DNA from: a virus
Strand: one strand, 5' to 3'
Virus record (IMG/VR): IMGVR_UViG_3300042924_003932
Span: 1-22,163 of that record
Length of the DNA stretch: 22,163 nucleotides
Shown piece by piece: positions 4,382 through 21,623 of this stretch; position 1 is the first letter of the stretch; each line of letters starts with the position of its first letter. The translations under genes were made by a program, and so were the position numbers. The notes beneath the pieces were generated by a model that did not search any database, was not told the DNA's origin, and worked only from the letters and a program-made list of their open reading frames with translations.

Positions 4382-7300
4382 TTATGTACATTCTGTAGGT
4401 CCTGATGAACCACCATCTCCTGATATTAATATTATTCCTGGAATTGTGTAAGCCTGAACTACCACTCCTGTTCCACCAAATGGAACACTCACTGTAGTTA
4501 AAGTGCCACTTGGGAAAGCATAATATTCAAATGTTGATCCAGCAGGATCCCCTTCGTCAAATAACGTATATTTTCCACAACCTCCACTATATGGTGAAGC
4601 TGTAGTTGTTGTAGTTGTTGTTGGGGTGGCAGTGGTAGTTGTTGTTGTAGTTGGTGCAGCAGTTGTAGTTGTAGTGGTTGTTGAAGAAGTTGATGTTGTG
4701 GTAGTAGTTGTAGAACTAGTAGTTGTTGTAGTTGTAGAGGTAGAGGTTGATGTGGTAGTAGTAGTTGTATTAACATATTCACCTTCTCCTTCCAAATTAC
4801 AATTTAAAGGTTGAATCACTCCAGTTCCAGCTAGAGAACAATTTGTTTGTATAACTGTAGCTGTAATGTTACACTGCAAAGGAGCAACTGTTGTTGTAGT
4901 TGTACTTGTTGTTGATGTAGAAGACGTACTTGTTGATGTTGTACTAGTAGTGGTTGGATTAGGAACCAATGTTCCCACTAAGAAATCAAAGTCTTCACAG
5001 CAATTGTTTTGTCCAGAATAGAAGAAGTTATTCTCTGCAATGTAGAAGTTTGGGATATAGCTATGAAAACTTATCCAACTCTTTGTGTTCATGTTGAAAG
5101 ATAGTGTCCAGGATACATTGCAGAAGTATTCTTCATCATTAAGACTAACATCTTGTCTAATAGTTAGGCCATTAACAATGTTATTGATGTAGAAACTTTG
5201 TTCAACTGGATCATACAGAATGTTATTTGACTTTGGTGCATAATCAAGTTTTGTAATAATCACTCTATCATATACAGCATCATAAACACCATGTAGTCCT
5301 ATTCCCTTAAAGTGATTATCAATATTCACATCTGGGAAGTTATTATCAATCATGAATGGTAGATGCTCAACAAAGAATCTGTTCATTCCTGATCCAAATG
5401 CAGACAAGTCATTCACTTGTGTTCCTTGTACTAAGAACACTTGTCCTCTTTTTGAATCCACTGTAACTTGACCTTGAGGAATCTTCAAAAGCATCTTGTG
5501 CTGACTTCCTACATATCCAAGATCAGTTTCAGCAAAGTCAATTGGAGGTGCACTCCTGAACAATAATGGATTACCTACATAAGCAGCTTGAGGGTTGCTT
5601 GTATCAATGGTCAATAAATTATTGTACAATAGTGACTTGTTCTCAAATCTAGCTAGAATAGCTTTGTTCTGTATACCATCTAAGCTTACAAGATTTCCAT
5701 AGTTCTGTGGGAAATCAAAATAAGAGATAGCTCTATAGATAAGCCAGTTGTTTATTCTATTATCAGCATCAATGTTTTGAGCATCAGAATAAATTGTTCT
5801 GAATGGATAATTTGTAAAGCAAAGTCTTGATTCCCAGTCAGGAGGCAAATGAGTGAACGTATTTTCTTTGTTTTGCTTAGAGAATGTGGTGTTATAGAAG
5901 TAGGTGTTGTCTTGTACAATAGGCACAAAACTTTCCTGAACCCAATCATCTGGAATGTCTGTACTAACGTTTGGCCAGAATTCTCCTTCTCTATTGTTGA
6001 ATGCTTGTCTTAAATCAACATTGTAAGAGCTTTCACAATAGAAGTTTGGAATACCATAAGCAAACAGATAGAAGTAGCCATCATAGTATGTGATGGTTGA
6101 GCTTGGTGTCACTTCTCCAGGTCCACTTGGTGAAACAGTTGTACTGGTAGTGGTGGTAGATGTAGATATAATCACATCTGTTCCCACTTCATTAGGACAG
6201 TCAAAATTGTGTGCTTTGTAAGAAATGATATTAGCCATCACTCCTTGTCCAGGAATGCTGTAGTTCTCGAGAATAGATCTTGCAGAGTGCCAGTATCTAG
6301 GATAGGCAACATTACCTATTTCATCATAAAAGATGTCGCTATCATCAGGAGCATTCACTCTGTTGTCAATAAAGAATGGAAGCTTTGTTTTGAAAGCAAC
6401 TCTGCTAATGAATGTATCACCACCAAACACAGTAGTGGATGGATTAGGTGAGTTAATTATGTATTGATAACCTGTATCAATTGTTTCGTATGAATAAATT
6501 TGCCCCCACTGATTAATAATTAAGTCTTTCAGTGATGCATAATATGAAACAACCTGTATCGGTTCTTCTTTAGCTGGCGTTGAGCAGTTTCCTATTTCTG
6601 AAATAGTGAATCTTGATCTATCTGTAACAATACTTATTGTTCCAGAAAGCATGTTTGGACTCTGATCAGGATAGGGAAGAGCTGTAGTATCTTCGTTTGT
6701 TTTTACAAAGACAGAGCTTTCTCTGTTCCAGTTGTTAATTGGAAGATCATCACCAAGAGCTTGTACACCTGGAATTAAGTATCTAGATATATCAAGTTCT
6801 CTTTGTTTGATTCCCTGATTATCAGGAACACCTACACCATAGTTGTAATCAGCAATAGAGTTAAATGAGTATGCATAGTTTCTTCTAGTAATACCATTAA
6901 CATAGATAGTCAAATAAGACTGATATGCAGTGAACATGGCTGTTGCACTGAACGGTGTAGTAATCTGCCCAAGCTTTGCAGAACTATCAAGAGCAGCCTT
7001 CTGTGCAGCTTCACTGAGCAGTTTGTATTTAGCGTTGTCTCTTACTTCTACAAAGTGGGCTTTACCTGCACCAAACATTACACTTTCTAGCTTAAGAATG
7101 TCTGCTAAGAATGGTTGACCAAATGATGTCTCTGGAGAGTTGAAGATTTGTCTGTATCTGTTCTCATCTTTAAAACCATCAAGTAGTGTTGTACCACCAC
7201 AGCCTGTTGCAGATCTTACTTGTTCTATTAGTCTTATTTGAGGACTCCAAAAAGTATTATTGCAATTTTCTATACATATCACTGCTGTTCCAGCAACAAC

Positions 7301-9451
7301 TTCAACAGTATCCTCGTTATCCCCAACACTAAGTGTTGTTGGACCCAAGAATCTATCATCATAAGATGCTGTGAATGTTTGTAAAGCAGGAGCATCAAGT
7401 GTGTAGATATCATAATTAGCATACCCAACTTCTCCTTCACCAATAATAATTGTTGGCTTACCAACAGCACAGATCACATCATCTTGTGTAGAGGTGTAAT
7501 CTTTGTACGTAATTTTGTTGTTCTCACAAGAATAATATTGAATTCTAGCTAACGAAGAACCATCAACTGGATTTGTACCAAGACTAGTTATGTAAACATC
7601 AAATGGTTCACACTCGCTCTGATAAGCATTGTTTGTTGTTGTAAGGAATGGATCTTCGTTAAGATCGTTATATGGATAGTTAGGGAAATAAAACGACTGG
7701 TCTTCTCTTGTGTATTCACCAACGTTTCTAAGAATACCCTTAGCTACAATAGACTTGTTAACACTTCTATCACCACGAACTATCTTAAATCCTACAATGT
7801 CAGCTTTCTGATCATCTGTAAGATTTGATACTTGTATAAGGTTTAAAATTTGAGAAGGATCAAGTTTTACACCAATAGGGAAAACAGCATCATTCCCCAT
7901 CATCATTGATTGTGATGTTGAGAAGATTTTACTTTCGTAAATAGGTGAGATGTTTACATCTGGAAACTTGTGGTGTCTGATTTTTTGTCCTGCAAGGTTT
8001 CCCCACACGTCTGTGTTGCATGGGTATTCTTCAACAGATTCCCAATAGGCAAATTCCCCAAATTGATATGGTCCCTTGTAAGAAACATTTGGTGAATATT
8101 CTGGAGAGAATCCTGTGACAGAAGCTGTGTTATAAATCTTCCAATACGGTGCATCATGTGTTACTGGGTCTGGTTCTCCTATGAAGTCTGGACTAGTATC
8201 AGGAATATTTGGTAATAATTGTTCGTACGATGAGATAGCTTTTCCTGGAATATGGAAACCATCTGTCTGTTTTCCATTCTTTAGAAGAAAAACTATTTCA
8301 AAAGCATACACTTCATCACGAAGATATCCTCTTAAGTTCGTTGCGTTTATTTCGTCTGCGTAGTTTTCTGTTGGAGGAATTCTCCAAGTCTCCCATAACA
8401 AATCAATACTATTAGCAATTTGTTGATAGTTGATTCTATCAATAGATGTTAACTGATCCCATACAAGAACATCTTGTACAGCTGTTAAATCTTGAGCAAT
8501 TTCATAGAATGGAAACTTCTCAAAGATATCAGCAATGTCAAGAATGATTGTTGATTGACCTGTATAAGTGATTTGTCTATTGCTGTTGTCAATAAAATAT
8601 GTACCAACAAGATCAACAGATGACACACCATTGATTGTCTTGATTACAGCAAGATTGAAATACTCAAACTGTCCAGTTGTATCAAGGTTATCAACATTGA
8701 CAACAATAGACTTTCCTACAGGGTAATTGAAATTGGGTGTTATAATAAACTTATCAGCAATTGGTGTAGGGTTGGTGATTGAGTAGTAAGATGTAAAAGG
8801 ATTGCCAGCTGGATCAGAATACTGAACAGCAAACTGATATGTACCAGAAATAAGATTTCCGCCACTAACAACATCAATAATTGTTAGCTCAGGAATGTTA
8901 AAATTAGGCTGTAACTTGAGTTGATTACAATCAAGATCATCTGTATAGATTGGACTACAAAGAGGACTTCCTGATCTTAATATTTTAGGAATGTCATCAA
9001 TGTCCAAGTATCTTCTAGCATTATATCCATCTGTCCAATAGATTTCTGTATTGCAGTTTGTGATTCTATGGACAATCTTGTGTATAGGATAGTTGATATT
9101 AAAGTTTAAGCAAGGAGCATTTACCAACACTCTGTAAACACAATCATTATTATCCATGTAGCCAATTTGGCTATCTCCTGTGGTGGGATTTGTAACAAAG
9201 AATATATGTTTATTCTTCTCTACGATAAAGTGTTCACCAATGACAACAGATCCTTCAGGTACACGAATACAGAATTCGTTACCAAGTTCATTCTGGTAGT
9301 TTACAGAATTGGAATCAAAGTTTTCAACAGCAGCATTAAGAGCATAAGTTAACCTCCCCTTTTGAATTTGATTCAGTGACTGATCAAGATTCAATCCTGT
9401 AGTGGCATTATTATACTCCTGTCTGACGTTACCTTCTTGTTGCTCAGCCAT
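4382..9451 (-). CDS. Very large muzzle-type tail protein with Thr-rich C-terminal appendages
   Basis: A 1689-aa protein, the largest complete gene here. The N-terminal motifs GLNLDQSLNQIQKGRLTYAL (19-38), SNSVNYQNE (48-55) and YWTDGYNARRYLD (138-150) match what I remember of the large stem or muzzle proteins of crAss-like phages, which close the tail channel at the distal end. The family-like part runs to about residue 1485, ending near WISFHSYIPNFYI. A short Ser/Thr insert sits at about 1096-1105. The C-terminus is appended decoration: Thr/Ser linker 1497-1522, a Cys-containing module 1523-1560 with two NC.L.G.G units, a long Thr linker 1561-1617 ending in three T7-x-x-P units, and a glycine-rich final domain 1618-1689. 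ATG at 9451 is 5 bases after the preceding stop, behind an AT-rich leader. The family assignment is from memory, not from a search. Confidence 0.85.
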   Translation of the reverse strand: MAEQQEGNVRQEYNNATTGLNLDQSLNQIQKGRLTYALNAAVENFDSNSVNYQNELGNEFCIRVPEGSVVIGEHFIVEKNKHIFFVTNPTTGDSQIGYMDNNDCVYRVLVNAPCLNFNINYPIHKIVHRITNCNTEIYWTDGYNARRYLDIDDIPKILRSGSPLCSPIYTDDLDCNQLKLQPNFNIPELTIIDVVSGGNLISGTYQFAVQYSDPAGNPFTSYYSITNPTPIADKFIITPNFNYPVGKSIVVNVDNLDTTGQFEYFNLAVIKTINGVSSVDLVGTYFIDNSNRQITYTGQSTIILDIADIFEKFPFYEIAQDLTAVQDVLVWDQLTSIDRINYQQIANSIDLLWETWRIPPTENYADEINATNLRGYLRDEVYAFEIVFLLKNGKQTDGFHIPGKAISSYEQLLPNIPDTSPDFIGEPDPVTHDAPYWKIYNTASVTGFSPEYSPNVSYKGPYQFGEFAYWESVEEYPCNTDVWGNLAGQKIRHHKFPDVNISPIYESKIFSTSQSMMMGNDAVFPIGVKLDPSQILNLIQVSNLTDDQKADIVGFKIVRGDRSVNKSIVAKGILRNVGEYTREDQSFYFPNYPYNDLNEDPFLTTTNNAYQSECEPFDVYITSLGTNPVDGSSLARIQYYSCENNKITYKDYTSTQDDVICAVGKPTIIIGEGEVGYANYDIYTLDAPALQTFTASYDDRFLGPTTLSVGDNEDTVEVVAGTAVICIENCNNTFWSPQIRLIEQVRSATGCGGTTLLDGFKDENRYRQIFNSPETSFGQPFLADILKLESVMFGAGKAHFVEVRDNAKYKLLSEAAQKAALDSSAKLGQITTPFSATAMFTAYQSYLTIYVNGITRRNYAYSFNSIADYNYGVGVPDNQGIKQRELDISRYLIPGVQALGDDLPINNWNRESSVFVKTNEDTTALPYPDQSPNMLSGTISIVTDRSRFTISEIGNCSTPAKEEPIQVVSYYASLKDLIINQWGQIYSYETIDTGYQYIINSPNPSTTVFGGDTFISRVAFKTKLPFFIDNRVNAPDDSDIFYDEIGNVAYPRYWHSARSILENYSIPGQGVMANIISYKAHNFDCPNEVGTDVIISTSTTTTSTTVSPSGPGEVTPSSTITYYDGYFYLFAYGIPNFYCESSYNVDLRQAFNNREGEFWPNVSTDIPDDWVQESFVPIVQDNTYFYNTTFSKQNKENTFTHLPPDWESRLCFTNYPFRTIYSDAQNIDADNRINNWLIYRAISYFDFPQNYGNLVSLDGIQNKAILARFENKSLLYNNLLTIDTSNPQAAYVGNPLLFRSAPPIDFAETDLGYVGSQHKMLLKIPQGQVTVDSKRGQVFLVQGTQVNDLSAFGSGMNRFFVEHLPFMIDNNFPDVNIDNHFKGIGLHGVYDAVYDRVIITKLDYAPKSNNILYDPVEQSFYINNIVNGLTIRQDVSLNDEEYFCNVSWTLSFNMNTKSWISFHSYIPNFYIAENNFFYSGQNNCCEDFDFLVGTLVPNPTTTSTTSTSTSSTSTTSTTTTTVAPLQCNITATVIQTNCSLAGTGVIQPLNCNLEGEGEYVNTTTTTTSTSTSTTTTTTSSTTTTTTSTSSTTTTTTTAAPTTTTTTTATPTTTTTTTASPYSGGCGKYTLFDEGDPAGSTFEYYAFPSGTLTTVSVPFGGTGVVVQAYTIPGIILISGDGGSSGPTECT
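4601..4771 (-). repeat. Long Thr/Ser linker near the C-terminus of the muzzle-type protein
   Basis: Residues 1561-1617 are almost all Thr with some Ser. They end in three consecutive units of seven Thr followed by AAP, ATP and ASP. The linker joins a small Cys-containing module to the final 72-residue domain. Confidence 0.85.
4886..4963 (-). repeat. Second Thr/Ser linker of the muzzle-type protein
   Basis: Residues 1497-1522 mix Thr and Ser and separate the family-like body of the protein from the first C-terminal appended module. A shorter Ser/Thr insert of the same kind occurs inside the body at 6137-6166. Confidence 0.8.
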
Positions 9452-9456
9452 AGGTA

Positions 9457-10431
9457 TTAATTATTTCTTCTTCTTCCGTAACGATTTGTTCTGTTAGGAA
9501 GCTCATACATGTTGAATCTATTCAATTGTTGTCTTATTCTACGTTGCTTGGTCCAGACATCTTGTTTCTTAATCTCAATGTCTGCCATAATGAATGCTTC
9601 GTCAGAAAGTCCTTTGTAATATACAAGTTTTTGCTGAAGCTGATTAAAGGTTTCATCATTGGTTTGGTTAACAAGCGTTTCAAACACTTTGTATTTGATG
9701 AAGTGTTCTAGATATTCTCTAATACGATAATTATCAGGAAGAAGCTGGTTTCCAAGACTGTCGTAATCTTGAGCATAGAAAACAAGATGGACAACGCCAT
9801 TTCTGAAATTCGTAACAAACTTGTTGTCTCTAATATCGAATGAATCATAAGTAGATGAACCTGGTGTAAAGTTATGAATTGGAACAGCTCCTTGACCATA
9901 CATCTCCCAGTTTTCTGTATAGTTAACATCACAATGTCCTCTTGCAGAAATGTTTCCTGGCTTTAGAAGATATTGTCTTTGATAGGTCATTGCTGTCTCA
10001 TTATTTGTTTTGTAGACAGTCTGCATGAACTCAGGCATACAACTACCATCGCATCCTACATTACCACAGCAAGGACTTTCAGGAGAACAAGCTGTAGTGA
10101 TTGGACTTACCTGTATAGTGGTTTGTGTAGATGCTTGAGAATAAAATGAGTTAGCTGTTTGATATGGGAAGCCATTAATCACTGTGCACATCCATGCTTC
10201 ACGAACAGCGTGAAAGTTGTCTGGAAGTCTTGCTTCAAAATTATCAACAACAAGAGCTGATTCAGCTATCACGTACGTGGCTCTTCCCAGCTTCCTAAGA
10301 CACTTGTCTAGATAGGTGGGGAATAACAGATCATCTACAGCACCTGTGTCAAAGTAGCTTTTTAATTCTTCTTTGACAGTTGAGTAGATTGGATCTGGGC
10401 TTACGAAGTTAAATTTATAGTAATATGCCAT
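9457..10431 (-). CDS. Tail stabilisation/ring-type protein of crAss-like phages
   Basis: A 324-aa protein. The N-terminus (KFNFVSPDP at 6-14, VKEELKSYFDTGAVDDLLFP at 19-38, then LRKLGRATYVI, ARLPDNFHAVREAW) resembles the conserved protein annotated in crAss-like phages as a tail stabilisation protein, related to P22 gp4-type head-tail connectors. Such proteins form rings between portal and tail. A Cys-rich insert at 115-131 (Cys115, 121, 122, 127, 131) could bind metal or form disulfides. The C-terminal third is helical and charged, ending in an Arg/Asn-rich tail (YGRRRNN). It starts at ATG 10431, two bases after the preceding stop, and is followed after 5 bases by the muzzle-type gene, a neighbour expected for this family. 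Confidence is good for the gene and moderate for the exact ring position. Confidence 0.85.
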   Translation of the reverse strand: MAYYYKFNFVSPDPIYSTVKEELKSYFDTGAVDDLLFPTYLDKCLRKLGRATYVIAESALVVDNFEARLPDNFHAVREAWMCTVINGFPYQTANSFYSQASTQTTIQVSPITTACSPESPCCGNVGCDGSCMPEFMQTVYKTNNETAMTYQRQYLLKPGNISARGHCDVNYTENWEMYGQGAVPIHNFTPGSSTYDSFDIRDNKFVTNFRNGVVHLVFYAQDYDSLGNQLLPDNYRIREYLEHFIKYKVFETLVNQTNDETFNQLQQKLVYYKGLSDEAFIMADIEIKKQDVWTKQRRIRQQLNRFNMYELPNRTNRYGRRRNN

Positions 10432-10433
10432 TT

Positions 10434-11679: not shown

Positions 11680-11690
11680 ATCATTTTTCC

Positions 11691-11724
11691 AAATAAAAAC
11701 TCCCAGACATTAAATGCCTGGGAG
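11691..11724 (-). terminator. Rho-independent terminator closing the tail-fibre unit
   Basis: On the minus strand CTCCCAG and CTGGGAG form a 7-bp GC-rich stem, extended inward by GCAT/ATGT with one G:T pair. It is followed directly by TTTTTATTT. On the plus strand the stem is followed by AAAACC, so it works only for minus-strand transcription. It lies 66 bases after the stop of the 116-aa gene and before the promoter box for the core tail unit. Confidence 0.85.
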
Positions 11725-11733
11725 AAAACCTAC

Positions 11734-11787
11734 AAAACCAATAAAGTAGAGTTTTATTTAATTGACGTAAAATTGGTTTTATTTTAC
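11734..11787. repeat. Pair of overlapping inverted repeats before the terminator
   Basis: AAAACCAAT at 11734-11742 is a perfect inverted copy of ATTGGTTTT at 11772-11780 (29 bases between). GTAAAAT at 11767-11773 is a perfect inverted copy of ATTTTAC at 11781-11787 (7-base loop). The two structures share bases 11772-11780, so in RNA only one could form at a time. They sit between the stop codon at 11791 and the terminator stem. They may stabilise the 3' end of the mRNA, modulate termination, or arise by chance from AT-rich sequence. Confidence 0.4.
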
Positions 11788-11790
11788 ACC

Positions 11791-12141
11791 TTATACAACT
11801 TCCGTAGTGGTAGTTGTAGTGGTTTCTGAAACAACTGTAGTTGTACTAGTAGTAGTTGGTACAGGTGGTACATAGTCACCAGTGATGGTTAGGTTCAGCT
11901 GTGCTGCTACCCAGTCCCATGCATAACTATCCACTTCCCATTGAGTGTAAGCTTCACCAGTCATGCTCAAGTTTCCTTGTGCCACTTGTTGACCAACTGA
12001 TAGGTCTACAGTCTCAGCAAACAGCTGATAGTAGAATGTAGCACTTGTTCCTAATGTAACATTTACAGCGTAGGCATTTAGAATCTTTGCCTCTAGTACT
12101 TGTCCGTTGTCCCAGATTGAGACTGCTTCGATTGTTTTCAT
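11791..12141 (-). CDS. Small fibre-associated protein with Thr-run C-terminus
   Basis: A 116-aa protein overlapping the end of the S74 fibre gene by ATGA, so probably translated with it. The body (1-92: KTIEAVSIWDNGQVLEAKIL, then ATFYYQLFAE, VAQGNLSMTGEAY, YAWDWVAAQLNLTI) resembles, from memory, a small protein commonly found next to tail fibres in environmental phage genomes. A beta-rich fold is likely; function is unknown. The last 24 residues are a Pro/Thr/Val/Ser-rich tail that includes exactly seven consecutive Thr followed by Glu-Val-Val and a stop. Other Thr runs here lead to a further domain, so this tail looks like a linker whose distal module is missing, or a plain low-complexity end. 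It is the last gene before the terminator. Confidence 0.8.
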   Translation of the reverse strand: MKTIEAVSIWDNGQVLEAKILNAYAVNVTLGTSATFYYQLFAETVDLSVGQQVAQGNLSMTGEAYTQWEVDSYAWDWVAAQLNLTITGDYVPPVPTTTSTTTVVSETTTTTTTEVV

Positions 12142-14498
12142 GATAACTTGTTTTTTAGTTCTTGTATTTGTTCTTGTTGTTGTTGAATTGCCTTGACCAT
12201 TGTTACAATAATTGCATTGTAATTCAATCCTATAAAATCATTGTTTTCCTCGTATGCTAGAGGAATGAATTCTCTAACCTCTTGAGCTACCAAACCAACT
12301 TGCTTTTCATCTCCATCTTCTTGGAAATCCATGTTATAAAGCTTAGGCTTTAAACCTATGATTGCATTTAATCCAAGCTCATAAGACTCAAAGTTTCGCT
12401 TTCTTTTTACGTCAGAAGCTGCGACCCATACAGAGGAAGCATTCAAAAGAACGTATCCTCCATTAGTTGAATAACCATATAATGCTGAACTAATTCCTCC
12501 TATATATCCACTTGTAACACCTTGAAATCCTACACCTATAGAAAGAGAATTATTATTTGAACTAACAAGTAATGTATTTCCACTTCCGTTAATCGTAACA
12601 TTTCCAGTTGAGTTTATGCGCATTCGTTCGGAGTTTGATGTTAAGAATGCTATTTCTGATATTCCTGCTTCTAATCGTATAGAACTATAAGAAGTTCCAG
12701 CATTGTTAATACCTTGTATTCTTAATACTCTGGTTGCAGTTGTCGTTCCTACTGTTTCTATAAACATCCCAGTATTGTCTGCTCCACTGTACGCATATGT
12801 AGTAGAATCTCCCCACTTTAAAGGGCCAATAACATCTAGCTTAAATCCATTATCACTTGTAGTTCCAATCATCAAGTTTCCGCCTGAGGTAATGCGCATT
12901 CGTTCGGTCATTGCGCTGCTATTAAGTCTAGTATAAAAGTTAATGTCTCCTGAAATATTACCGTCAGTAGTATTTGATTTCATGCCACCAATTGCAGACC
13001 ATTCAGTATATGAACCACCCGAATTAAATGTGCCTCCAAATGTTACTGTGCCTCCATGATTAGAAACATTGAAAGCTTGAGAATCATAAACACCTAATCC
13101 CGAAAATGCAGTTGATTTATCCCATTGAACACTTAGTCTTGATGGAGGAGTAATAGTACCAATCCCCACGTTTCCACTTGAAGTAATGCGCATTCGTTCA
13201 GAACCATTAACCCCAAATACCATAGGGTTTGTGGAATTAATTAAAAAATTACTTATATCACCTCCAGCTTCTAAAATACCTAAACTTGCATTACTTAATC
13301 CAACTGTTGTACCTGTTGCATTAGCTCCATAAGCAAGCATACCAACATATCTGTTACCTGTGGTAACCGTATATAAGAATGTTCTTGCTGATACTCCTGT
13401 GTTAGGATTACTTAAAGTTAATCTTGCATCCCCGTTTGTATCTTGGAATACTGATAATCTTTGTCCTGGACTAGTCGTCCCAATCCCAACGTTGCCGCCG
13501 CTTAAAATACTTAAAGTACCGCTAGTTGTAGTTAAAAATAGATTATTGTCTGCCCTTAATTCAAGTGCATCTAATGTGCCAATACCTAATTGAGCGGAGT
13601 TTCCTAAATATCCAATGCTTGTTCCGCTTCTTCGAAAACCAATATAACCACCGCTTGCGTTTGTAGAATTAAAAATTGTATTAATTGCTCCTGTAACCTC
13701 AGATGTTAAAGTATCACTAAACCGCCCAGTTCCATTAACATCTAGCTTAAAGCCAGCGTCTGTGGTGGTGTTAATTAGTACGTTTCCTCCACTAGTAATT
13801 CTAATTCTAGGATTCCCAGATGTGTTGGTGTTAAAATCTAAATTATTATTCCCTAGAAAAATAGCACTTCCAGTCCCTCTACTGTTATTTATTAATAATT
13901 CAAAATCATTTGTGTATTGGATTCCTCCAGATTTAGTTTGTCCCAACGAATCAAAAAGCAATTGCGAACCATTACCAACAACATTTACTTGAGTAGCATT
14001 TGATTGTATGATACTATTTCCAATAGTTGTGCTGCCAGTAAAAACAGGAATTGTTCCGCTTGTACCTGTTCCAGTGACAGGGTTGGTCAAAGCGTTCTGC
14101 TTATTATTGAATGTAGTCCAGTCTGCTGCACTCAAAGCCCCTCTGTTAGTAGCACTTGCAGTAGGTACATTCAAGGTTATTACAGGGGTCGTGGTGCCAT
14201 TTGCAACAGTAGATGACAAGTCAGTACCACTTGTGCCTAATGTAAGAGCAGCAACGCTAGTAACTGTTCCCACACCAGAACCGCCCACTAAGGCTAACGT
14301 GCCTGTTGCAGATGGAAGTGTATATGTATAAGTTCCATTAGATATAGTGGAACCTAATGTCAAAACTCCACTAAACTTACCAGTTCCTGTTACGTCAAAA
14401 GTAGCTTGTGGAGAAACATTATTCATGCCCACTCTAGAGTTGACAATGTCAGCTGTTAGGAAGTCTGTTAGGAATGATAAATTAGTATTCTTTGACAT
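12138..14498 (-). CDS. Tail fibre with C-terminal S74 intramolecular chaperone
   Basis: A 786-aa protein. The body carries repeated beta motifs of the form ERMRIT.SGNV.IGT.(T/S).....L.V and a block near residue 100-140 typical of phage fibres (ATNRGALSAADWTTFNNKQN). The C-terminal 92 residues are a peptidase S74 (endosialidase-type) chaperone: SDVKRKRNFESYELGLNAI begins at Ser695, with Lys700 five residues on as in the known Ser-Lys self-cleavage dyad, then KPKLYNMDF, KQVGLVAQEVREF and a Gln-rich coiled-coil end (QQQQEQIQELKNKL). S74 domains trimerise fibres and then cut themselves off, so the mature fibre should end near residue 694. Unlike the two fibres upstream it has no collagen-like tract or Thr linker. 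ATG at 14498 follows a 62-base gap in which I see no terminator. Confidence 0.9.
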   Translation of the reverse strand: MSKNTNLSFLTDFLTADIVNSRVGMNNVSPQATFDVTGTGKFSGVLTLGSTISNGTYTYTLPSATGTLALVGGSGVGTVTSVAALTLGTSGTDLSSTVANGTTTPVITLNVPTASATNRGALSAADWTTFNNKQNALTNPVTGTGTSGTIPVFTGSTTIGNSIIQSNATQVNVVGNGSQLLFDSLGQTKSGGIQYTNDFELLINNSRGTGSAIFLGNNNLDFNTNTSGNPRIRITSGGNVLINTTTDAGFKLDVNGTGRFSDTLTSEVTGAINTIFNSTNASGGYIGFRRSGTSIGYLGNSAQLGIGTLDALELRADNNLFLTTTSGTLSILSGGNVGIGTTSPGQRLSVFQDTNGDARLTLSNPNTGVSARTFLYTVTTGNRYVGMLAYGANATGTTVGLSNASLGILEAGGDISNFLINSTNPMVFGVNGSERMRITSSGNVGIGTITPPSRLSVQWDKSTAFSGLGVYDSQAFNVSNHGGTVTFGGTFNSGGSYTEWSAIGGMKSNTTDGNISGDINFYTRLNSSAMTERMRITSGGNLMIGTTSDNGFKLDVIGPLKWGDSTTYAYSGADNTGMFIETVGTTTATRVLRIQGINNAGTSYSSIRLEAGISEIAFLTSNSERMRINSTGNVTINGSGNTLLVSSNNNSLSIGVGFQGVTSGYIGGISSALYGYSTNGGYVLLNASSVWVAASDVKRKRNFESYELGLNAIIGLKPKLYNMDFQEDGDEKQVGLVAQEVREFIPLAYEENNDFIGLNYNAIIVTMVKAIQQQQEQIQELKNKLS
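12616..13199 (-). repeat. Three identical 14-bp DNA repeats inside the S74 fibre gene
   Basis: The plus-strand string ATGCGCATTCGTTC occurs at 12616-12629, 12892-12905 and 13186-13199. It encodes ERMRI at the start of three successive beta repeats. Other copies of the protein motif in the same gene use different codons, so DNA identity is tighter than the protein needs. This fits recent duplication or local recombination. Confidence 0.75.
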
Positions 14499-14560
14499 GA
14501 TTCAATTGTTTTCATTTGTTCATTAATTCCGATCTGCCCTTATTCTCGCTCATTAGTTAA

Positions 14561-17383
14561 TTATCTAATCATTACTGTTAATTCTAGGCTAAAGTAAGAG
14601 CCTGCTGATGTTGAAATTATAATATTTGTTCCAGACCCACTTACACCACTAAGTGTGGCTATTGTAGTTGCGTTAGGACCATATGCTGCGCCACTCCAAT
14701 TTCCACTTGTATCTCTTGATATATAAAATTCTCTAGCCTCTGAACCGCCTCCTGACCCTGTTAATCCACAATATTTTGCAAAAACAGCCCACGAATTACC
14801 TGTGACAAGACCCATTAATGGAAATTCTGTTGGTAAGTTTATTGTTGTTGAAGAAGTAGGTCCATATATTAAAACTTTAGTACCGTGATAACTAGGTTCA
14901 TGTGTTAATGTCGGTATATGAGCAGTTCCATTTACTCGTAGTTTTGTTCCATTGTCCGATGTCGTTCCAATCAAGACGTTACCTCTATTAAAAGCATATA
15001 CACTTGATTCAAATTGTAAAGGAGTATAAAGAGAAGTAGAACGGTTATATGTAATTACTTCAGTAATTTGACTACCTATTTGTGTAAATTCAATTCCATC
15101 AGCTCCACCATTTGATATAACAAGTTGTCTTTCAGGGGTAGCTGTCCCAATACCTACTTGCCCTGTATTACGAATAATCATCCTATCTACTGAATTAGTA
15201 CTAAAATATATTGGATGACTTGAAAGTGTTGCAAGATATAATCCCTCCCCTGTTGTAGCAATATTATATGAACTTATATCCAATCTTCTTGCAGAGTTAG
15301 CTTGACCAACACTTATTGCTGTAGTAGTTCCTGCTGTTATAAATCTAGCTAAACCGCTTGCAGTAGAACTGCCTACACCACTTGCAGAAATAACATCTAA
15401 ACTTAAAGCCTTAACACTACTTGAAAAGGTAGCTGCGCCTGTGGAGGCTAGGGTGAGGGCTGATACATAATTAATTGCAAAATTTATCCCTGAACCTGTT
15501 GGTGTATTTAAATACAAACCAGCACCACCATCTGAACCAATCCATCTTTGAGAACCTAAACCAATAGATGTACCTGTGAAAATATTAGGGCCACTCCATG
15601 TAGCACTTGTCCCGTTCAAAGCACCTGTCAAAGTTCCACCTGTCAAAGGCAGGTAACCTGATAGGTCACTAGTTAACGCCATTGTACCTGAAGCATCAGG
15701 AATAACTATAAATTTATTAGTTGATGCATTTGAAGTAATATCGTGATATTGAGTAGAAGGTGCGCTATTATATACTCTAATTTTGGGAATAATTAATTTT
15801 CCATCTGACCCATCAATTGCAGTTGGGCTACCTGCTCCAAACGATGCAGTTCCTGTATGAGAAGTTGTAGAACTAAAATTAGCACTTGCACCAGTTAAAG
15901 TTCCACTAAACCTTACTGTTCCGTTGACATCAAGTTTATAGCTAGCATCAGCTGGGCTTGTACTAATTACTACGTTTCCGTTTTCAAATACCTTTAATTT
16001 CTCGGAATAGGTTGTGCCTGTATAAATTGATAAAGTTTGCCCTTGAATAGTTAAAGGTCTAGGACCAGTTCCAGCTAAAGAAAGAATGCTTTGGTCATAA
16101 ATGTAAACTCCATTCTTAGTGTTGCCAATTAAAGAGGAGCCACTAAACAAACCAACCCCATTAACCTCTAAAGTTGTGGCTGGAGTTGCTGTATTTATTC
16201 CAACATTTGTTCCATTGTCAAAGACTTGACTATTACCAATTGTTGTTGCTCCTGTAAACTTTGACAAGTAATTAGTCGTACCGCTTCCTGTTATTATTTG
16301 AGGAATGATGGCACTTGTATAGTTCAATACAGTGACAGTATCTCCTGCCAATAGTCCTATTCCTAAAACTACTGTTGTACCATCTGTAGCTGTATAATCT
16401 GTAGGAAGATATCTTACACCATTTACATATACATCTATTAGTCCAACTGTATAACCACCTGAAATAGTAAATGTAGTTTGTGATGCTGTTGCTACAAAAT
16501 TGTTTTCAATTCTTGATGATGTACCTGCTAAACCACTCGTACCGCTAGTTCCATTTACACCTGATGTTCCTGATGTTCCTGAAGTCCCAGTAGTACCACT
16601 CGTGCCTGATGTACCATTAATTCCAGAAGTACCCGAAGTGCCAGTGGTACCGCTAGTACCAGAAGTACCACTTGTACCATTGATTCCTGAAGTACCACTT
16701 GTACCATTAACTCCACTAGTACCACTTGTCCCACTAGTTCCTGAAGTGCCATTCACTCCAGAGGTTCCAGATGTACCTGTAGTTCCACTAGTACCAGAGG
16801 TCCCTGTAGTACCGCTAGTTCCTGAAGTGCCATCCGTACCGCTAGTTCCCGAACTTCCATCAGCACCAGAAGAGCCAGAGGTTCCTGTAGTTCCAGAAGT
16901 ACCCGAACTACCAGATGTTCCGCTAGTACCATCTGTACCACTCGTTCCAGATGTACCACTTGAACCTGAAGTACCACTGGTTCCAGTTGTTCCTGATGTT
17001 CCGCTTGTACCTGTTGTGCCAGAAGTACCGCTTGTACCATTTGAACCAGAGCTACCACTAGAACCTGTTCCTCCTGATGTACCACTAGTACCACTAGTAC
17101 CTGTTGTTCCGCTTGTACCACTGGTTCCAGAAGTTCCGTTTGTTCCACTACTACCAGAAGAACCTGTAGTTCCTGGAACACCAGAAATTACAACATCCCA
17201 ATTACAATACACACCACTACCAATGAATGTACTTGGAGTAAAAGTCAATTCACCAGTAGCAGGATTATAAGAAACTACTTGACCTACAATGTAATTGCTG
17301 TTGTCAGCAATCAATTGTATGAATTGGCCAGCAATAAATGATAATCCTGTATTAGTTGTTATTGTTATGTTAGAGTATGGCAT
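14561..17383 (-). CDS. Large collagen-like tail fibre, probable receptor-binding fibre
   Basis: A 940-aa protein. Residues 1-68 are a beta-rich module (ITITTNTGLSFIAGQFIQL, then VVSYNPATGELTF) also found in the middle of the 761-aa fibre just before its second collagen tract. Residues about 71-286 are Gly-Thr-Ser-type triplets, a collagen-like rod of roughly 70 triplets. After this comes a module with VYVNGVRYLPTDYTATDGTT, then beta repeats of the form NVGI.TATP...L.V.G shared with the S74 fibre. The C-terminal 80 residues are Gly/Ser-rich (WAVFAKYCGLTGSGGG, then YISRDTSGNWSGAAYG) with no S74 domain, and could hold the receptor-binding tip. ATG at 17383 follows an AT-only 18-base inverted repeat (17385-17402). 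The fibre role is well supported; the receptor is unknown. Confidence 0.85.
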   Translation of the reverse strand: MPYSNITITTNTGLSFIAGQFIQLIADNSNYIVGQVVSYNPATGELTFTPSTFIGSGVYCNWDVVISGVPGTTGSSGSSGTNGTSGTSGTSGTTGTSGTSGTSGGTGSSGSSGSNGTSGTSGTTGTSGTSGTTGTSGTSGSSGTSGTSGTDGTSGTSGSSGTSGTTGTSGSSGADGSSGTSGTDGTSGTSGTTGTSGTSGTTGTSGTSGVNGTSGTSGTSGTSGVNGTSGTSGINGTSGTSGTSGTTGTSGTSGINGTSGTSGTTGTSGTSGTSGVNGTSGTSGLAGTSSRIENNFVATASQTTFTISGGYTVGLIDVYVNGVRYLPTDYTATDGTTVVLGIGLLAGDTVTVLNYTSAIIPQIITGSGTTNYLSKFTGATTIGNSQVFDNGTNVGINTATPATTLEVNGVGLFSGSSLIGNTKNGVYIYDQSILSLAGTGPRPLTIQGQTLSIYTGTTYSEKLKVFENGNVVISTSPADASYKLDVNGTVRFSGTLTGASANFSSTTSHTGTASFGAGSPTAIDGSDGKLIIPKIRVYNSAPSTQYHDITSNASTNKFIVIPDASGTMALTSDLSGYLPLTGGTLTGALNGTSATWSGPNIFTGTSIGLGSQRWIGSDGGAGLYLNTPTGSGINFAINYVSALTLASTGAATFSSSVKALSLDVISASGVGSSTASGLARFITAGTTTAISVGQANSARRLDISSYNIATTGEGLYLATLSSHPIYFSTNSVDRMIIRNTGQVGIGTATPERQLVISNGGADGIEFTQIGSQITEVITYNRSTSLYTPLQFESSVYAFNRGNVLIGTTSDNGTKLRVNGTAHIPTLTHEPSYHGTKVLIYGPTSSTTINLPTEFPLMGLVTGNSWAVFAKYCGLTGSGGGSEAREFYISRDTSGNWSGAAYGPNATTIATLSGVSGSGTNIIISTSAGSYFSLELTVMIR
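16525..17173 (-). repeat. Collagen-like Gly-[Thr/Ser]-[Thr/Ser] tract of the 940-aa fibre
   Basis: About 216 residues are built almost wholly of triplets Gly-Thr-Ser, Gly-Thr-Thr and Gly-Ser-Ser, with occasional Asn, Asp, Val, Ala or Ile in the X position. Gly falls at every third residue without a break. Codons for the same residues vary from unit to unit, so the DNA is far less repetitive than the protein. Prolines are nearly absent. Confidence 0.85.
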
Positions 17384-17427
17384 TTTAAAATTAATATTTT
17401 AAGTTTTTAGATGGCTAACGCAATCAC

Positions 17428-19713
17428 TTAACAATTTAAAATCTGAGTTATAAATCCACTATTATCAACTAGAATCACTTGGCCAGAGCCAGAAGATGCA
17501 ACACTCTTATACCATTTAGTATTACCAGCAAGAACAGTGGATAAGCCAATATTAGTATAAATTATCTTACCATTATTGAATGCATCTTGTAATGTAGACG
17601 GGCAACCGCCTGCGCTAGAGAAGTATGCAATTAATGGTGTTCCAGTTCCGTTACAAGCATCAGTAGAAGTATTCCAACCCTGAGTTCCTGGAGACTGTGA
17701 TCCATCAAAGTATATTGTTAAAGAACAAGTTGCAGATGTAGTAGTGGTTGTAGTAGTTGGAACTCCAGTTGTTGTTGTAGTGGTTGTAGTTGACGAATCT
17801 GTTGTAGTAGTTGTTGTCGTAGGCGATCCTGTAGTTGTTGTGGTAGTGGTAGGTATTCCTGTTGTGGTAGTTGTAGTTGTTGTACTACCATTTAATGGTA
17901 AAGTTATACAATTTAAACTTTCACCATAAAATAAAGATGATATACCACTTGTTCCTGATGTACCTGATGAACCAGATGTACCAGAGGTTCCACTAGTACC
18001 TGTTGTACCTGAGGTTCCAGTACTACCTGAAGTACCACTGGTACCTGATGTTCCTGTAGTACCGCTTGTACCAGTAGTGCCACTAGTTCCACTTGTACCA
18101 GAAGTTCCTGTTGTACCAGAGCTTCCCGAGGTACCGCTTGTACCTGAACTGCCGCTTGTTCCTGACGTTCCAGATGTACCGCTTGTTCCAGATGTACCCG
18201 TAGTACCAGAAGTACCAGAAGTACCAGAAGTACCAGTAGTACCGCTTGTACCTGTTGTTCCGCTTGTACCCGTTGTACCGCTTGTACCATTTATTCCACT
18301 AGTTCCACTAGTTCCGCTTGAACCATCGCCTCCACTAGCACCATCTAAATTAACAATCCAAGAAGTGTAAGTGCCACCACCCACTGTTCGTGTAGGGGAA
18401 CCAAATGTAAGAGAGCCTGTATTAGAATCATAAGATATTACTTCACACTCTTGGAAATTAGAAGTGTCATAAACAATAATGATTGATTGTGCAGCAGTAT
18501 ATGCTAAACCTGTACCTACAGTTATTGTACCGCTGTTTCCTAAAGTGAAAGAAGACGTAGAAGTTGTTCTATATCTATCTCCAGAAATACCACTAGTTCC
18601 ACTAGTTCCAGATGTACCCGTAGTACCACTGGTGCCCGTTGTACCGCTAGTCCCAGAACTACCACTCGTTCCTGTGGTCCCACTTGTTCCTGTAGTCCCA
18701 CTTGTACCGCTAGTGCCTGTAGTACCAGAAGTACCTGAGGTTCCCGTTGTACCAGAGGTGCCAGATGTTCCACTGGTTCCACTTGTTCCAGCAGTACCAG
18801 AAGTGCTAATTGGAGCAGTGCCTAACGATCCATCACCTTTGATGTATTGTAAAGCTGTTCCAATTGCTGATATACCAATAATACCAGAAGTGGTGATTGG
18901 ACTATTTGAAACAGCAAATGCTGGAGGAACACTTATTCCTACAGAAGAAACTGTTCCTGGTGTGTATCCTAATATAGATATAATGTCACCAGCTGTAATG
19001 GGGGATGCTGCTGTAACCAGTCCTTTTGAGTTTACAGCAAACTTTAATGGTGTTACACCTACGTATGGATTAGGATTGACATTCTGTAATGTCAATGTTA
19101 TTGTTGATTGTGTAAATCCTGTTCCTAGTACATCACCTATGAAGGTGATTGATTGTGGAGCTGTTACCAATGGTGTTGTTGTAAGACTAGTAACTAGTCC
19201 CTTAGCATTCACTGTAACTACAGGGATTAAAGATCCTGCTCCAAAAGTTCCTGGATTTGAATTAACAGTGCTTAGCGTGAAAGCTACAGCACCTGGTCCT
19301 GTGGCTACACCATCACCAGAAAGAGCTGTGATGTAGTTTCCTGGAGGTTGGAAAGATGAGCTATCTAGTGTACCATCACCTTTAACAAATTGAGAGGATG
19401 TACCACCTGTTGTTATGTGCTTTGCAGCCTGAACATTACCTTGTAGTGTCAAGGTGTAATTACCAAGAATGGTTGTGTTTTGTATTAAACTACCACCTAA
19501 TTGTACTGGTTGACTTAATCCTGATTGAATTAAACCATTGTTGAAGATGTAACCCATCTGAGCATTTGTGAATGCTTGGTTTATCTTCTGTAGAGCAGTT
19601 TGTAAACTATCATTTGTATTTACACCAATGTACAATAAATTCTCACCCTCGTAAAAAACGCAAGAGGATGATAATAAAAGAGGACATGGTTCAGCTCCAC
19701 ATATAACGCTCAT
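17428..19713 (-). CDS. Modular collagen-like tail fibre with Thr linker and C-terminal Cys module
   Basis: A 761-aa protein with at least seven modules. (1) Cys-containing N-terminus and helical module, residues 5-52 (Cys5, Cys10, Cys18, then YEGENLLYIGVNTNDSLQTA and LQKI), shared with the two proteins upstream. (2) Fibre repeats about 105-300 with VNAKGLVTS, VNSKGLVTAASPI and KGDG. (3) Collagen-like tract about 304-376. (4) Beta module about 378-461, shared with the N-terminus of the 940-aa fibre. (5) Second collagen-like tract about 463-591. (6) Thr linker 610-662, built of five T7-8 runs separated by GIP, GSP, DSS and GVP. (7) Cys-bounded domain 663-761 (CSLTIYFDG ... ITQILNC), similar to the end of the 171-aa protein at 20009-20524. 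It is most likely a trimeric side fibre attached by its N-terminus. Confidence 0.85.
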   Translation of the reverse strand: MSVICGAEPCPLLLSSSCVFYEGENLLYIGVNTNDSLQTALQKINQAFTNAQMGYIFNNGLIQSGLSQPVQLGGSLIQNTTILGNYTLTLQGNVQAAKHITTGGTSSQFVKGDGTLDSSSFQPPGNYITALSGDGVATGPGAVAFTLSTVNSNPGTFGAGSLIPVVTVNAKGLVTSLTTTPLVTAPQSITFIGDVLGTGFTQSTITLTLQNVNPNPYVGVTPLKFAVNSKGLVTAASPITAGDIISILGYTPGTVSSVGISVPPAFAVSNSPITTSGIIGISAIGTALQYIKGDGSLGTAPISTSGTAGTSGTSGTSGTSGTTGTSGTSGTTGTSGTSGTTGTSGTTGTSGSSGTSGTTGTSGTTGTSGTSGTSGISGDRYRTTSTSSFTLGNSGTITVGTGLAYTAAQSIIIVYDTSNFQECEVISYDSNTGSLTFGSPTRTVGGGTYTSWIVNLDGASGGDGSSGTSGTSGINGTSGTTGTSGTTGTSGTTGTSGTSGTSGTTGTSGTSGTSGTSGTSGSSGTSGTSGSSGTTGTSGTSGTSGTTGTSGTTGTSGTSGTSGSTGTSGTTGTSGTSGTSGSSGTSGTSGISSLFYGESLNCITLPLNGSTTTTTTTTGIPTTTTTTTGSPTTTTTTTDSSTTTTTTTTGVPTTTTTTTSATCSLTIYFDGSQSPGTQGWNTSTDACNGTGTPLIAYFSSAGGCPSTLQDAFNNGKIIYTNIGLSTVLAGNTKWYKSVASSGSGQVILVDNSGFITQILNC
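17728..17886 (-). repeat. Thr-run linker (T7/T8 units) in the 761-aa fibre
   Basis: Residues 610-662 contain runs of 8, 7, 7, 8 and 7 threonines separated by three-residue spacers (GIP, GSP, DSS, GVP). The last three runs of the linker in the 1689-aa protein have the same T7-x-x-P build. Thr codons within each run are mixed, so run length is not simply a microsatellite. Confidence 0.85.
17943..18325 (-). repeat. Second collagen-like tract of the 761-aa fibre
   Basis: About 128 residues of uninterrupted Gly-x-y triplets with Thr or Ser at nearly every x and y position. The DNA contains a short near-perfect tandem array of a 9-base unit at about 18203-18245, the most repetitive DNA in the tract. 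Confidence 0.85.
18586..18805 (-). repeat. First collagen-like tract of the 761-aa fibre
   Basis: About 73 residues of Gly-Thr-Ser/Gly-Thr-Thr triplets lying between the fibre-repeat region and the module shared with the 940-aa fibre. Confidence 0.85.
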
Positions 19714-19741
19714 AGCTTGACTTTTTAAAATTTTCTATTCA

Positions 19742-19990
19742 TTACAGTGGTGCTGTAGTGGTAGTAGTGGTGGTAGCACTTACAGCTACATCAATAAAGT
19801 TTGTGCACACTCCTATACTAATTATTCTTACAGTGGTTGTACCAGCTGGAACAGTTGCAGCATATCCTGCTAACAAAGTTGCTTTTGCAATATTTACAGC
19901 AAATGCAGATACAAATCCATCAGCATTTGAATAAAGGTTGAATGGTCCTGCGTCTGCTCCAGCTGATGTAAGAGTTATAAATACAAACAT
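19742..19990 (-). CDS. Small single-module decoration protein ending in seven Thr
   Basis: An 82-aa protein made of one beta-rich module (FITLTSAGADAGPFNLYSNA at 4-23, later VRIISIGVCTNFIDV) followed by exactly seven Thr, then Ala-Pro-Leu and a stop. It is a close paralogue of residues 1-80 of the 152-aa protein at 3912-4370. The DNA is also alike: a 19-base string (CTACATCAATAAAGTTTGT on the plus strand) is identical at 19786-19804 and 4163-4181. A diverged third copy starts the 288-aa protein at 3044-3910. The gene lies between two appendage genes, with gaps of 18 and 28 bases. Function is unknown; a capsid or tail decoration is the simplest reading. The Thr run ending in a stop suggests either a loss of a distal domain or a minimal display unit. 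Confidence 0.75.
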   Translation of the reverse strand: MFVFITLTSAGADAGPFNLYSNADGFVSAFAVNIAKATLLAGYAATVPAGTTTVRIISIGVCTNFIDVAVSATTTTTTTAPL

Positions 19991-20008
19991 GCACTTTTAA
20001 TTTAATGG

Positions 20009-20524
20009 TTAGCAAGAAGTTGCTGCACTCAGCACTCCTCCACTTGATAATGTCCACTTAGTACTTAAATTGGTTATGTAAATATAACCACTGTAAGTAG
20101 TTGTTAAAGCAGTGTTGGTGTATAAAACTACACCATTTGCTAGTACAGGAACAGATGTATACAATATAGGCAGTAGTATAGCTGACGTACATGGATTTGC
20201 AATATTTGCTAATCCTCCTAAATACCAAGAATAATATCCAGGTCCTGTAGTTGTTGTACTAGTTGTACTAGTAGTTGGAGCACCTGATGTACTAGTTGTT
20301 GTAGTTAAAGGTGGTGTTGGAGATATCTGTGCTTCTATAAGAGCAATTGCATTGTCAATCTTCTGCAACACGACTGTAAGGTCATCACAACTTTGTATTC
20401 CTGTTCCTGCTAGGTTTGGACCTACATATTTAACATTTTCAGAAGATACAAAATTACATTGATCACCGCTGCAACCACATGGACCTAAAGATCCGCATCC
20501 TGGGCAATTAGTATTGAATGGCAT
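20009..20524 (-). CDS. Cys-rich N-terminal module, Thr linker and C-terminal Cys module protein
   Basis: A 171-aa protein if started at ATG 20524, four bases after the preceding stop. An in-frame ATG at 20557 would overlap that gene by 29 bases and add 11 residues out of line with the Cys pattern of neighbouring N-termini, so I prefer 20524. The N-terminus is Cys-dense (Cys7, 10, 16, 18, 23). A helical module follows (YVGPNLAGTGIQSCDDLTVV then LQKIDNAIALIEAQI) shared with the 761-aa and 364-aa proteins. A Thr/Ser linker at 74-93 connects to a C-terminal domain (96-171) containing GVVLYTNTALTT and TKW, ending in Cys, as in the 761-aa fibre. It looks like a short version of that fibre without the collagen rods, perhaps a minor tail-tip spike. 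Confidence 0.75.
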   Translation of the reverse strand: MPFNTNCPGCGSLGPCGCSGDQCNFVSSENVKYVGPNLAGTGIQSCDDLTVVLQKIDNAIALIEAQISPTPPLTTTTSTSGAPTTSTTSTTTTGPGYYSWYLGGLANIANPCTSAILLPILYTSVPVLANGVVLYTNTALTTTYSGYIYITNLSTKWTLSSGGVLSAATSC

Positions 20525-20528
20525 AGTT

Positions 20529-21623
20529 TTATGGGATGTACATGATGTAATATGCACCTATTGTAGGTTGGATGTTATTATGACTTAATCCTCCACCTGT
20601 CGATGAATTTGTAACACTAACTATTATTCCTGTTTTGTTGTTATTTGTAATAGTCGAAAGTGTTTTAGGAAGTGTCATGTCCAACAATGTACCAGACACA
20701 CCACTTTCATTTTGATCAGCTTGACCTTTTTTGTAAGCTAATGTATGATCATGCCCAGGATCTACAATACTGGTTGTTGCTATGTGGGTGTGAGAAGGGA
20801 TTTGAGTAGCTGATAAGGTCACATTATTCAAACCTGCTAAACCAAATAGTGAATAACTTGGATTACCTGCTGTAGATGGATTAACTATAGAACTCATTGG
20901 TATACTTCCAGCCATACTTCCATCTGTAGTTCCTACAGCAACACGTCCTCTCTTGTCTGGTGTACCATTGCTTCCATTACACAAAAACACATCTATGAAT
21001 TGTCCAGTACCTGCTCCTGTAACATCAAAACCTGTAAGAGGACCATAGTACTCATAAGCAATGTATGGTACCATGTTGTTCTTGTACAAGTTAGATGGAG
21101 CAATACTATTCAAATAAGCTTGAATAAGAGCATTTAAGTCAGCCAGCTTAACATAGTTTGTATCAACGTCAATTTCTAGTGCTGTTAAATCAACAGCTGT
21201 TGCACAGAGCTTGTTAATAGCTGCTTGAAGAATGTCATGTGTATCAGATGATGATGTTACACCTGTAAGACATCCAATTGTGTAATTGGCATTGAGGGTG
21301 GTGAGTGTTGATTCAATTGCTGTAACACTGGTTTTTAAAGAGCAAATTGATCGAATCAATGCTGATATAACATCATTAAGTGTTATTTCACCAGACACTG
21401 GAAGAAAGCCACTCACCAATGCGCAAAGATCAGCTGGATTGATAACAGGAATAATCCCATTACCAGTAGACAGATCTATTATGAATGTTGCAATTTGTAA
21501 TTCAACATTAGCAAGAGTGTCGCCATTTGAAATACCAAGGGCAGGAATATTAAATCCTGTATATCTTACGCACTGATCAGATATGATTTCTGTGCATCCG
21601 TTAAAGCAATTAGAGCAGCTCAT
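20529..21623 (-). CDS. Tail-collar-like short fibre or baseplate protein
   Basis: A 364-aa protein. The N-terminus has paired cysteines (MSCSNCFNGC). There follow three related helical segments: about 33-51 (NGDTLANVELQIATFII), 82-106 (LNDVISALIRSICSLKTSV) and 126-150 (SDTHDILQAAINKLCATAV). These resemble the single copies in the 171-aa and 761-aa proteins. The C-terminal half matches the phage tail-collar pattern: VFLCNGSNGTPDKRGRVAVG (212-231), the His pairs SHTH (277-280) and GHDH (290-293), and SHNNIQPTIGAYYIMYI at 347-363. In T4 gp12-type fibres such His pairs bind metal in a trimeric knot at the receptor-binding tip. It abuts the 88-aa gene with no gap. It is probably a short tail fibre or central tip protein. 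Confidence 0.85.
   Translation of the reverse strand: MSCSNCFNGCTEIISDQCVRYTGFNIPALGISNGDTLANVELQIATFIIDLSTGNGIIPVINPADLCALVSGFLPVSGEITLNDVISALIRSICSLKTSVTAIESTLTTLNANYTIGCLTGVTSSSDTHDILQAAINKLCATAVDLTALEIDVDTNYVKLADLNALIQAYLNSIAPSNLYKNNMVPYIAYEYYGPLTGFDVTGAGTGQFIDVFLCNGSNGTPDKRGRVAVGTTDGSMAGSIPMSSIVNPSTAGNPSYSLFGLAGLNNVTLSATQIPSHTHIATTSIVDPGHDHTLAYKKGQADQNESGVSGTLLDMTLPKTLSTITNNNKTGIIVSVTNSSTGGGLSHNNIQPTIGAYYIMYIP

Follow-up and report, generated by a model that had tools for sequence, protein, structure and literature searches.

Proline-poor Gly-Thr-Ser rods of two crAss-like phage fibre proteins as probable collagen-type tail fibre shafts

The window analysed here is the whole 22,163-nucleotide stretch of virus record IMGVR_UViG_3300042924_003932 (IMG/VR, positions 1 to 22,163), in which two fibre proteins, encoded by open reading frames (ORFs) on the minus strand and called ORF1 and ORF2, contain three long rods with Gly at every third residue (Gly-X-Y) and almost exclusively Thr and Ser elsewhere. 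In our view, these rods are probably the collagen-type shafts of a crAss-like phage's trimeric tail fibres. Rod 1 has 74 triplets (ORF1 residues 68-289; 16517..17182, minus strand), rod 2 has 45 (ORF2 residues 458-592; 17938..18342, minus strand) and rod 3 has 25 (ORF2 residues 306-380; 18574..18798, minus strand). A preliminary description of the window had placed tracts of 72, 43 and 24 triplets at 16525-18805; the span covers nearly all of the rods, but each count was one or two triplets short. The pattern itself is real, with the Gly period unbroken over all 144 triplets. At position X, Thr is found in 114 of the 144 triplets and Ser in 15, and at position Y Ser is found in 103 and Thr in 25. 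The commonest triplets are GTS (87), GTT (23) and GSS (13), with a single GST; the order within the triplet is non-random (87 GTS vs 1 GST, p about 3e-25). Thr and Ser, which had been handled as interchangeable, thus differ in their preference, Thr for X and Ser for Y. One Pro, five Asp and one Arg were counted in the 144 triplets, in agreement with the earlier remark that Pro and charge pairs are almost missing, and the rods therefore lack the Pro or charged-pair trait of typical collagens. They also lack GGX-type content, Gly being present at X or Y in only 2 of the 144 triplets.

If residues of equal composition were ordered at random, an unbroken Gly period would arise with odds of about 10^-35, 10^-21 and 10^-12 for rods 1, 2 and 3, respectively. 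The codon identity between equal triplets was 0.317, 0.348 and 0.242, compared with 0.331, 0.354 and 0.287 after shuffling of synonymous codons, and all three rods lie about 1.6 standard deviations or less from the shuffled controls. The Ser codons are divided between TCN and AGY (33/28, 20/19 and 7/11 in the three rods). Since the codons are at the shuffle level and Ser uses both codon classes, the Gly-X-Y pattern has been held at the protein level despite synonymous turnover, and slippage at the DNA level, considered as a source of the rods, was ruled out. Only rod 2 contains an exact repeat longer than in most shuffles (26 nt, matched by 3% of shuffles), which fits its length difference from a near-identical relative (L004), in which the first 300 and the final 167 residues of ORF2 equal those of the window and rod 2 has 42 instead of 45 triplets. 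The ORF1 rod has 15 triplets in three relatives (L005, L006 and L008) vs 74 in the window. Rod length thus changes in whole triplets while the flanks are conserved. ORFs on the plus strand with translations such as VPLVPEVP... are the rods read backwards.

Pfam matches to the crAss muzzle protein (4382..9451, minus strand; PF25731, 1.6e-31) and crAss ring protein 1 (9457..10431, minus strand; PF24228, 1.7e-9) place both genes in a crAss-like tail region. ORF1 (940 residues; 14561..17383, minus strand; Pfam Collagen, 3.4e-30) consists, from the N to the C terminus, of a bead module, the 74-triplet rod and a non-collagenous part. ORF2 (761 residues; 17428..19713, minus strand; Pfam Collagen, 1.5e-26) consists of an N-terminal part, the 25-triplet rod, a bead module, the 45-triplet rod, a Thr-rich linker and a C-terminal part; it also matches PHROG tail families, with the best-matching stretches mostly inside the repeat. 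The curated PF01391 cut-off of 27.2 bits is exceeded by both proteins (104 and 92.3 bits).

The bead module is a small all-beta domain of about 85 residues located between rods 3 and 2 of ORF2, with a few residues at its ends shared with the rods (residues 378-462; 18328..18582, minus strand; hidden Markov model (HMM) match, 1.8e-41; AlphaFold2 mean predicted local distance difference test (pLDDT) 89.6). A shorter second copy, in which 67 residues were matched, precedes rod 1 in ORF1 (residues 5-71; 17171..17371, minus strand; HMM match, 1.3e-22). In 58 fetched loci, the HMM detected 122 copies spread over 75 ORFs, with a G-X-Y tract at most 30 residues away in 115 copies and on both sides in 86; the query used to fetch many of the loci contained the bead, and some loci overlap, so the counts describe context and not prevalence. 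Among named phages, at the limits used, the bead matched only two records, both of one 735-kb metagenomic phage, and the ORF2 N-terminus had no match, the rods themselves being masked by BLAST.

As to the fibre ends, S74 domains are trimerising chaperones, and the neighbouring fibre gene (12138..14498, minus strand) encodes a C-terminal Peptidase_S74 chaperone (Pfam, 9.8e-6, over the cut-off). In relatives the domain is found on the rod-bearing chain itself: in the fetched viral loci, a home-made HMM found an S74-type C-terminal domain in 39 of 215 ORFs with Thr/Ser (T/S) rods, a lower bound because locus ends truncate some ORFs, and in 13 of 139 Pro-type ORFs, which may include antisense readings of GPX tracts. 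At the other end, the first 45-50 residues of ORF2 resemble the N-termini of two neighbouring ORFs, 20009-20557 (3e-6) and 20529-21623 (3e-5), in a comparison of ten sequences with the composition correction off. Of the N-terminal query, relatives matched these residues alone (11 rows, with at least one contig counted twice). On the basis of this likeness and of the matches in relatives, we propose that these residues (19564..19713, minus strand) may be a docking piece.

The position rule extends well beyond the window. The loci fetched by similarity to ORF2, a set not fetched by rod composition but which may favour ORF2-like rods, contained 242 tracts with 9927 triplets in 58 loci. Position X was occupied by Thr in 59.7%, Ser in 25.7%, Gly in 2.4% and Pro in 1.0% of the triplets, and position Y by Ser in 71.9%, Thr in 11.6% and Gly in 1.3%. 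Of the 212 tracts with at least 15 triplets in this set, 190 were T/S-rich and Pro-poor, 20 intermediate and two T/S-poor; this split, like the hydrophobic spacing described below, was read from six frames, in which GPX tracts can appear as GPX in antisense too. The X/Y contrast stands when recounted with one ORF per place. When the loci fetched with the muzzle gene, likewise not selected by rod composition, were included and one ORF per place was taken, Thr was more frequent at X than at Y in 245 of 256 tracts of at least 12 triplets (65 loci); the 11 exceptions, all of them Pro-containing or GGT-rich, come from five loci. Large muzzle-selected crAss-like contigs appear to fall into two kinds, those with T/S rods and those whose rods are short, contain Pro and have a T/S share of 0.12 or less, and a share between 0.12 and 0.70 did not occur among the tracts listed, at most six per locus. 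Six crAss-like loci (L419, L426, L695, L700, L701 and L703) have such short Pro-containing, T/S-poor tracts in place of T/S rods.

Hydrophobic residues at X are few and avoid each other, the median observed/expected ratios at distances of one and two triplets being 0.13 and 0 (79 loci); such spacing suits an exposed surface. We also looked for a superhelical period in their positions and found none beyond the avoidance of close neighbours. Asn or Asp occupied Y in 57% of 1327 triplets with Val or Ile at X, compared with 7% when X was Thr, although repeats within one gene are not independent. GTS rods are common in environmental phages (at least 120 stretches in one scan), and the longest in the viral set collected by the GTS pattern has 639 triplets. 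Some bacterial contigs (L215, L202, L259 and L273) contain Pro-poor, Thr-rich tracts of GTT or GST type, with Thr also at Y, and the bacterial matches include other styles, namely GTT, GAS and GTC repeats.

We favour a collagen-type shaft made of three chains because of the tail region, the S74 trimerising chaperones, the Gly at each third residue and the precedent of the crAss001 tail fibre gp22, which is trimeric and docks via residues 1-26 (PMC10172136). In the proposed arrangement, three identical chains would form a polyproline-II rope of three strands in which Gly faces inward and Thr/Ser outward. The chains would be clasped along the fibre by bead modules and at its ends by chaperone domains, provided by the same protein in some relatives and by the neighbouring gene in the window. 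The rods would serve as spacers whose length is set by the number of triplets; at 0.86 nm per collagen triplet (PMC7824840), they would measure about 64, 39 and 22 nm, and a change by whole triplets between strains would shift the receptor-binding end. Stability would be derived from the flanking trimers, the length, hydration of the hydroxyl groups and the moderate temperature of the habitat, and not from Pro or salt bridges. One open frame of 2529 residues in the 735-kb metagenomic phage (L725; LR756501.1 103757-112026) contains the bead and T/S-rich rods of 301, 44 and 402 triplets, the longest of which would extend over about 345 nm.

Several observations weigh against a shaft of this kind. 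According to host-guest propensities, GST should be steadier than GTS, the opposite of the order seen here. The AlphaFold2 model of the monomer leaves the rods unstructured (pLDDT about 25-37). Pfam recognised no trimerisation domain on ORF1 or ORF2, and S74, present on the adjacent gene, is absent from both. Foldseek returned nothing for the bead at an E-value of 0.001 or below, and its best fold match in VIA, a JBD30 baseplate chain (Z 7.8), is under the level of trust advised for the tool; although the top of the VIA list consists of phage baseplate and tail chains (8rk3, 8jov and 8vjh, Z 7.6-7.8), the list is mixed with V-ATPase and helicase barrels, and we therefore name no family for the bead. 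Furthermore, the position rule reverses that of the published collagens: Thr accounts for 3.1% of X and 8.9% of Y in viral collagens, and for 1.4% and 48.3% in those of Gram-positive bacteria (PMC3368898, Table 4). In our Pro-rich viral set, Thr was counted 86 times at X vs 629 times at Y in 2023 triplets without Pro at X, with an excess of Thr at Y in 157 of 190 tracts and at X in 14, in a set that was fetched by the GPX pattern and is thereby biased against Thr at X. The preliminary description had set the rod chemistry apart from that of normal bacterial collagen-like proteins; with the rule reversed, the difference from ordinary viral collagens is larger than it had claimed.

The same reversal could be taken to indicate a different fold, namely a polyglycine-II-like or other polyproline-II bundle formed within one chain or by more than three chains; a polyglycine-II-like bundle had been proposed for this window. 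Such bundles share with the rods a Gly-rich local pattern of polyproline-II type and occur in phage tails (S16 gp38, Bxb1 and a cyanophage) as well as in the snow flea antifreeze protein (PMC13243192), and the coupling of Val/Ile at X with Asn/Asp at Y hints at distinct faces. Bundles of this kind are, however, built from several short strands with the GGX motif, GXX repeats forming triple helices (PMC13243192), whereas the window rods are long and unbroken GXX, Gly in the ORF2-similarity set is as rare at X and Y as given above, and single rods extend for hundreds of triplets without break or turn. The modelling suggested in the preliminary description was run as an AlphaFold2 monomer of rod-bead-rod, which gave no bundle, a weak negative with a shallow alignment, and speaks neither for nor against a form with several chains. 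Two module-bearing relatives fetched by similarity to ORF2 (L047 and L052) contain long GGT-rich stretches, that is the GGX motif, next to GSS and GTS triplets, which means that the family is not wholly GXX; they offer a natural test case for discriminating between a triple helix and a polyglycine-II bundle. On balance, we regard a bundle as improbable for the window rods.

The low pLDDT values, the resemblance in composition to engineered Gly-Ser-Thr linkers and the poly-Thr linkers found elsewhere in the window would also be compatible with a flexible hydrophilic linker, an entropic tether with no ordered structure. A linker has no need of a strict period, yet every Gly was kept under saturated synonymous change; moreover, the X/Y rule is reproducible and the hydrophobic residues are spaced. 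We find it hard to reconcile these features with a tether and assign it the smallest likelihood of the readings considered.

With regard to the stability of a three-chain collagen-type rod, the premise that the rods must be stabilised in another way than by Pro or charge is weakened by Bucl3 of Burkholderia, described as Pro-free with 38-63 mainly GTS/GSS triplets (PMC4565658). A host-guest calculation gave 20-35 C, unmodified, for every Bucl protein outside the top four, Bucl3 included (PMC4565658), and special means of stabilisation therefore need not be invoked. By analogy with this group, a helix free of modification is credible at the temperatures of the environment, and clamped ends would make it more so.

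Alternatively, the rods could be modified, with phage glycosyltransferases, perhaps together with methyltransferases, decorating Thr at X so that the glycans steady the helix and cloak the fibre, as in the glycosylated BclA (PMC8968730). GT2 was found over the cut-off in five of six sizeable rod-bearing relatives (the sixth being a 62-kb contig), and relatives contain Pfam cassettes of Methyltransf_24 with GT32-type and GT2, of two GT2 with Methyltransf_24, and of GT11 with GT2. On one crAss-like contig (L331), about 1.5 kb separates a GT9-GT4-GT2-GT4-GT9 run (8757-14999) from a collagen gene of the T/S type (16515-20000). GT2 genes were denser in GTS than in GPX contigs (8.5 vs 3.7 per Mb), although the GPX contigs were taken by pattern and some may lack a real rod gene. 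Among all searched contigs, GT2 was present in 15 of 42 GTS vs 11 of 50 GPX; in contigs of at least 80 kb the shares were equal (12 of 20 vs 6 of 10).

A strong link between GT2 and the rods, seen initially in crAss-like contigs of at least 98 kb (eight of eight with strong collagen matches, G001-G005, picked by module, and G007, G013 and G015, vs none of three, G010, G011 and G016, with no or one short collagen match), weakened when 12 more muzzle-selected contigs were included; the rods of G015 are moreover of the Pro type, not T/S. In muzzle-selected contigs of at least 88 kb, with the rod class of each judged from its fetched loci, GT2 was present in five of six with T/S rods and in seven of 12 others (p = 0.60), in 10 of 11 vs seven of 12 when the five module-selected contigs were added (p = 0.15), and in nine of 12 contigs with any collagen match over the cut-off vs three of six without (p = 0.34). 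Among the glycosyltransferases only GT2 was counted, and the GT2 match of G122 sits at the cut-off, while that of G119 passes only together with its neighbours. Left out of the final test as shorter than 88 kb were G006, G008, G012, G014, G018, G019 and G021 (collagen, no GT2), G009 (87.6 kb, collagen and GT2), and G017 and G020 (neither). The 2-oxoglutarate (2OG) oxygenase family PF13640 was found in none of six in a narrow test. The substrates of phage glycosyltransferases may be DNA or host sugars, and Pfam recognised no such enzyme in the nine window ORFs scanned, the window being a fragment. Glycosyltransferases are thus at hand, but significant tracking of the rods by them was not shown, and we consider modified rods unlikely, albeit less so than a bundle.

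Pro-free GTS collagen-like tracts are already in print for Burkholderia (PMC4565658). Bucl3 and other GTS-type proteins of that genus resemble the window rods in being Pro-free and dominated by GTS/GSS and in having strain-variable lengths, but Bucl3 is described as a predicted bacterial surface protein (PMC4565658), whereas the window rods belong to phage fibres. The longest Burkholderia tracts among those listed are nearly pure GTS, and the bead module was absent from 117 bacterial genome-contig stretches. EPclA and EPclB, trimeric side-tail proteins of Escherichia coli prophages, likewise have rods between other domains in tail proteins, and for EPclA a trimer and a collagen-type circular dichroism (CD) spectrum were demonstrated; they are, however, rich in charge, with Pro at 48.1% of X and Thr at 0.1% of X and 20.2% of Y (PMC3368898), while the window rods have Thr at X and hardly any Pro. 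The spore protein BclA of Bacillus shares Thr-richness and the use of few triplet types with the rods (PMC8968730) but differs in its known glycosylation and in the position of Thr. Its triplets are GPT, with Thr at Y. The crAss001 fibres are trimeric, with N-terminal docking at the collar of ring proteins (PMC10172136); the word collagen is absent from the main text of that paper.

Phrase searches of the open-licence literature found no paper on phage GTS tracts, on the rod-bead module or on the reversal of the Thr/Ser rule, and no structural study of GTS rods; GTSGTSGTSG matched only three papers on malaria MSP1. It is possible, if doubtful, that environmental phages share a second, near-pure G-T-S chemistry of collagen rods, in which Thr occupies X and Ser occupies Y, with Asn/Asp at Y where X is Val/Ile. 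In packing or decoration such rods would be unlike any characterised triple helix, be it as a new three-chain polyproline-II rope stabilised by a hydroxyl ladder or as a rope completed by phage-made glycans on the Thr at X. Few long protein repeats known to us are as simple as the GTS rods. Should they prove to be triple helices, neither Pro nor charge is needed for a collagen-type rod; the position rule, being opposed to the host-guest values, would put those values directly to the test, and the rods would open a way to the design of simple rods. If they are glycosylated, crAss-like fibres would bear glycan coats built by the phage.

Other features were observed in the window. A 1014-residue open-ended protein (1-3042, minus strand) contains an SLT transglycosylase domain (3.6e-11) and is perhaps an ejected cargo protein. 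Thr runs (TTTTTT, TSTSTT and TTTTTTTGxP), possible mucin-like linkers, are present in six ORFs, including the C-terminal region of the muzzle protein (4608-4770, 11791-11830, 17744-17900 and 19742-19770, also within 3912-4370 and 20009-20557). A small N-terminal domain (xITLTSAGxDxGPFxLYS...) is common to ORFs 19742-19990, 3912-4370 and 3044-3910 (minus strand); a comparison of few sequences gave E-values of 2e-28, 2e-7 and 6e-6.

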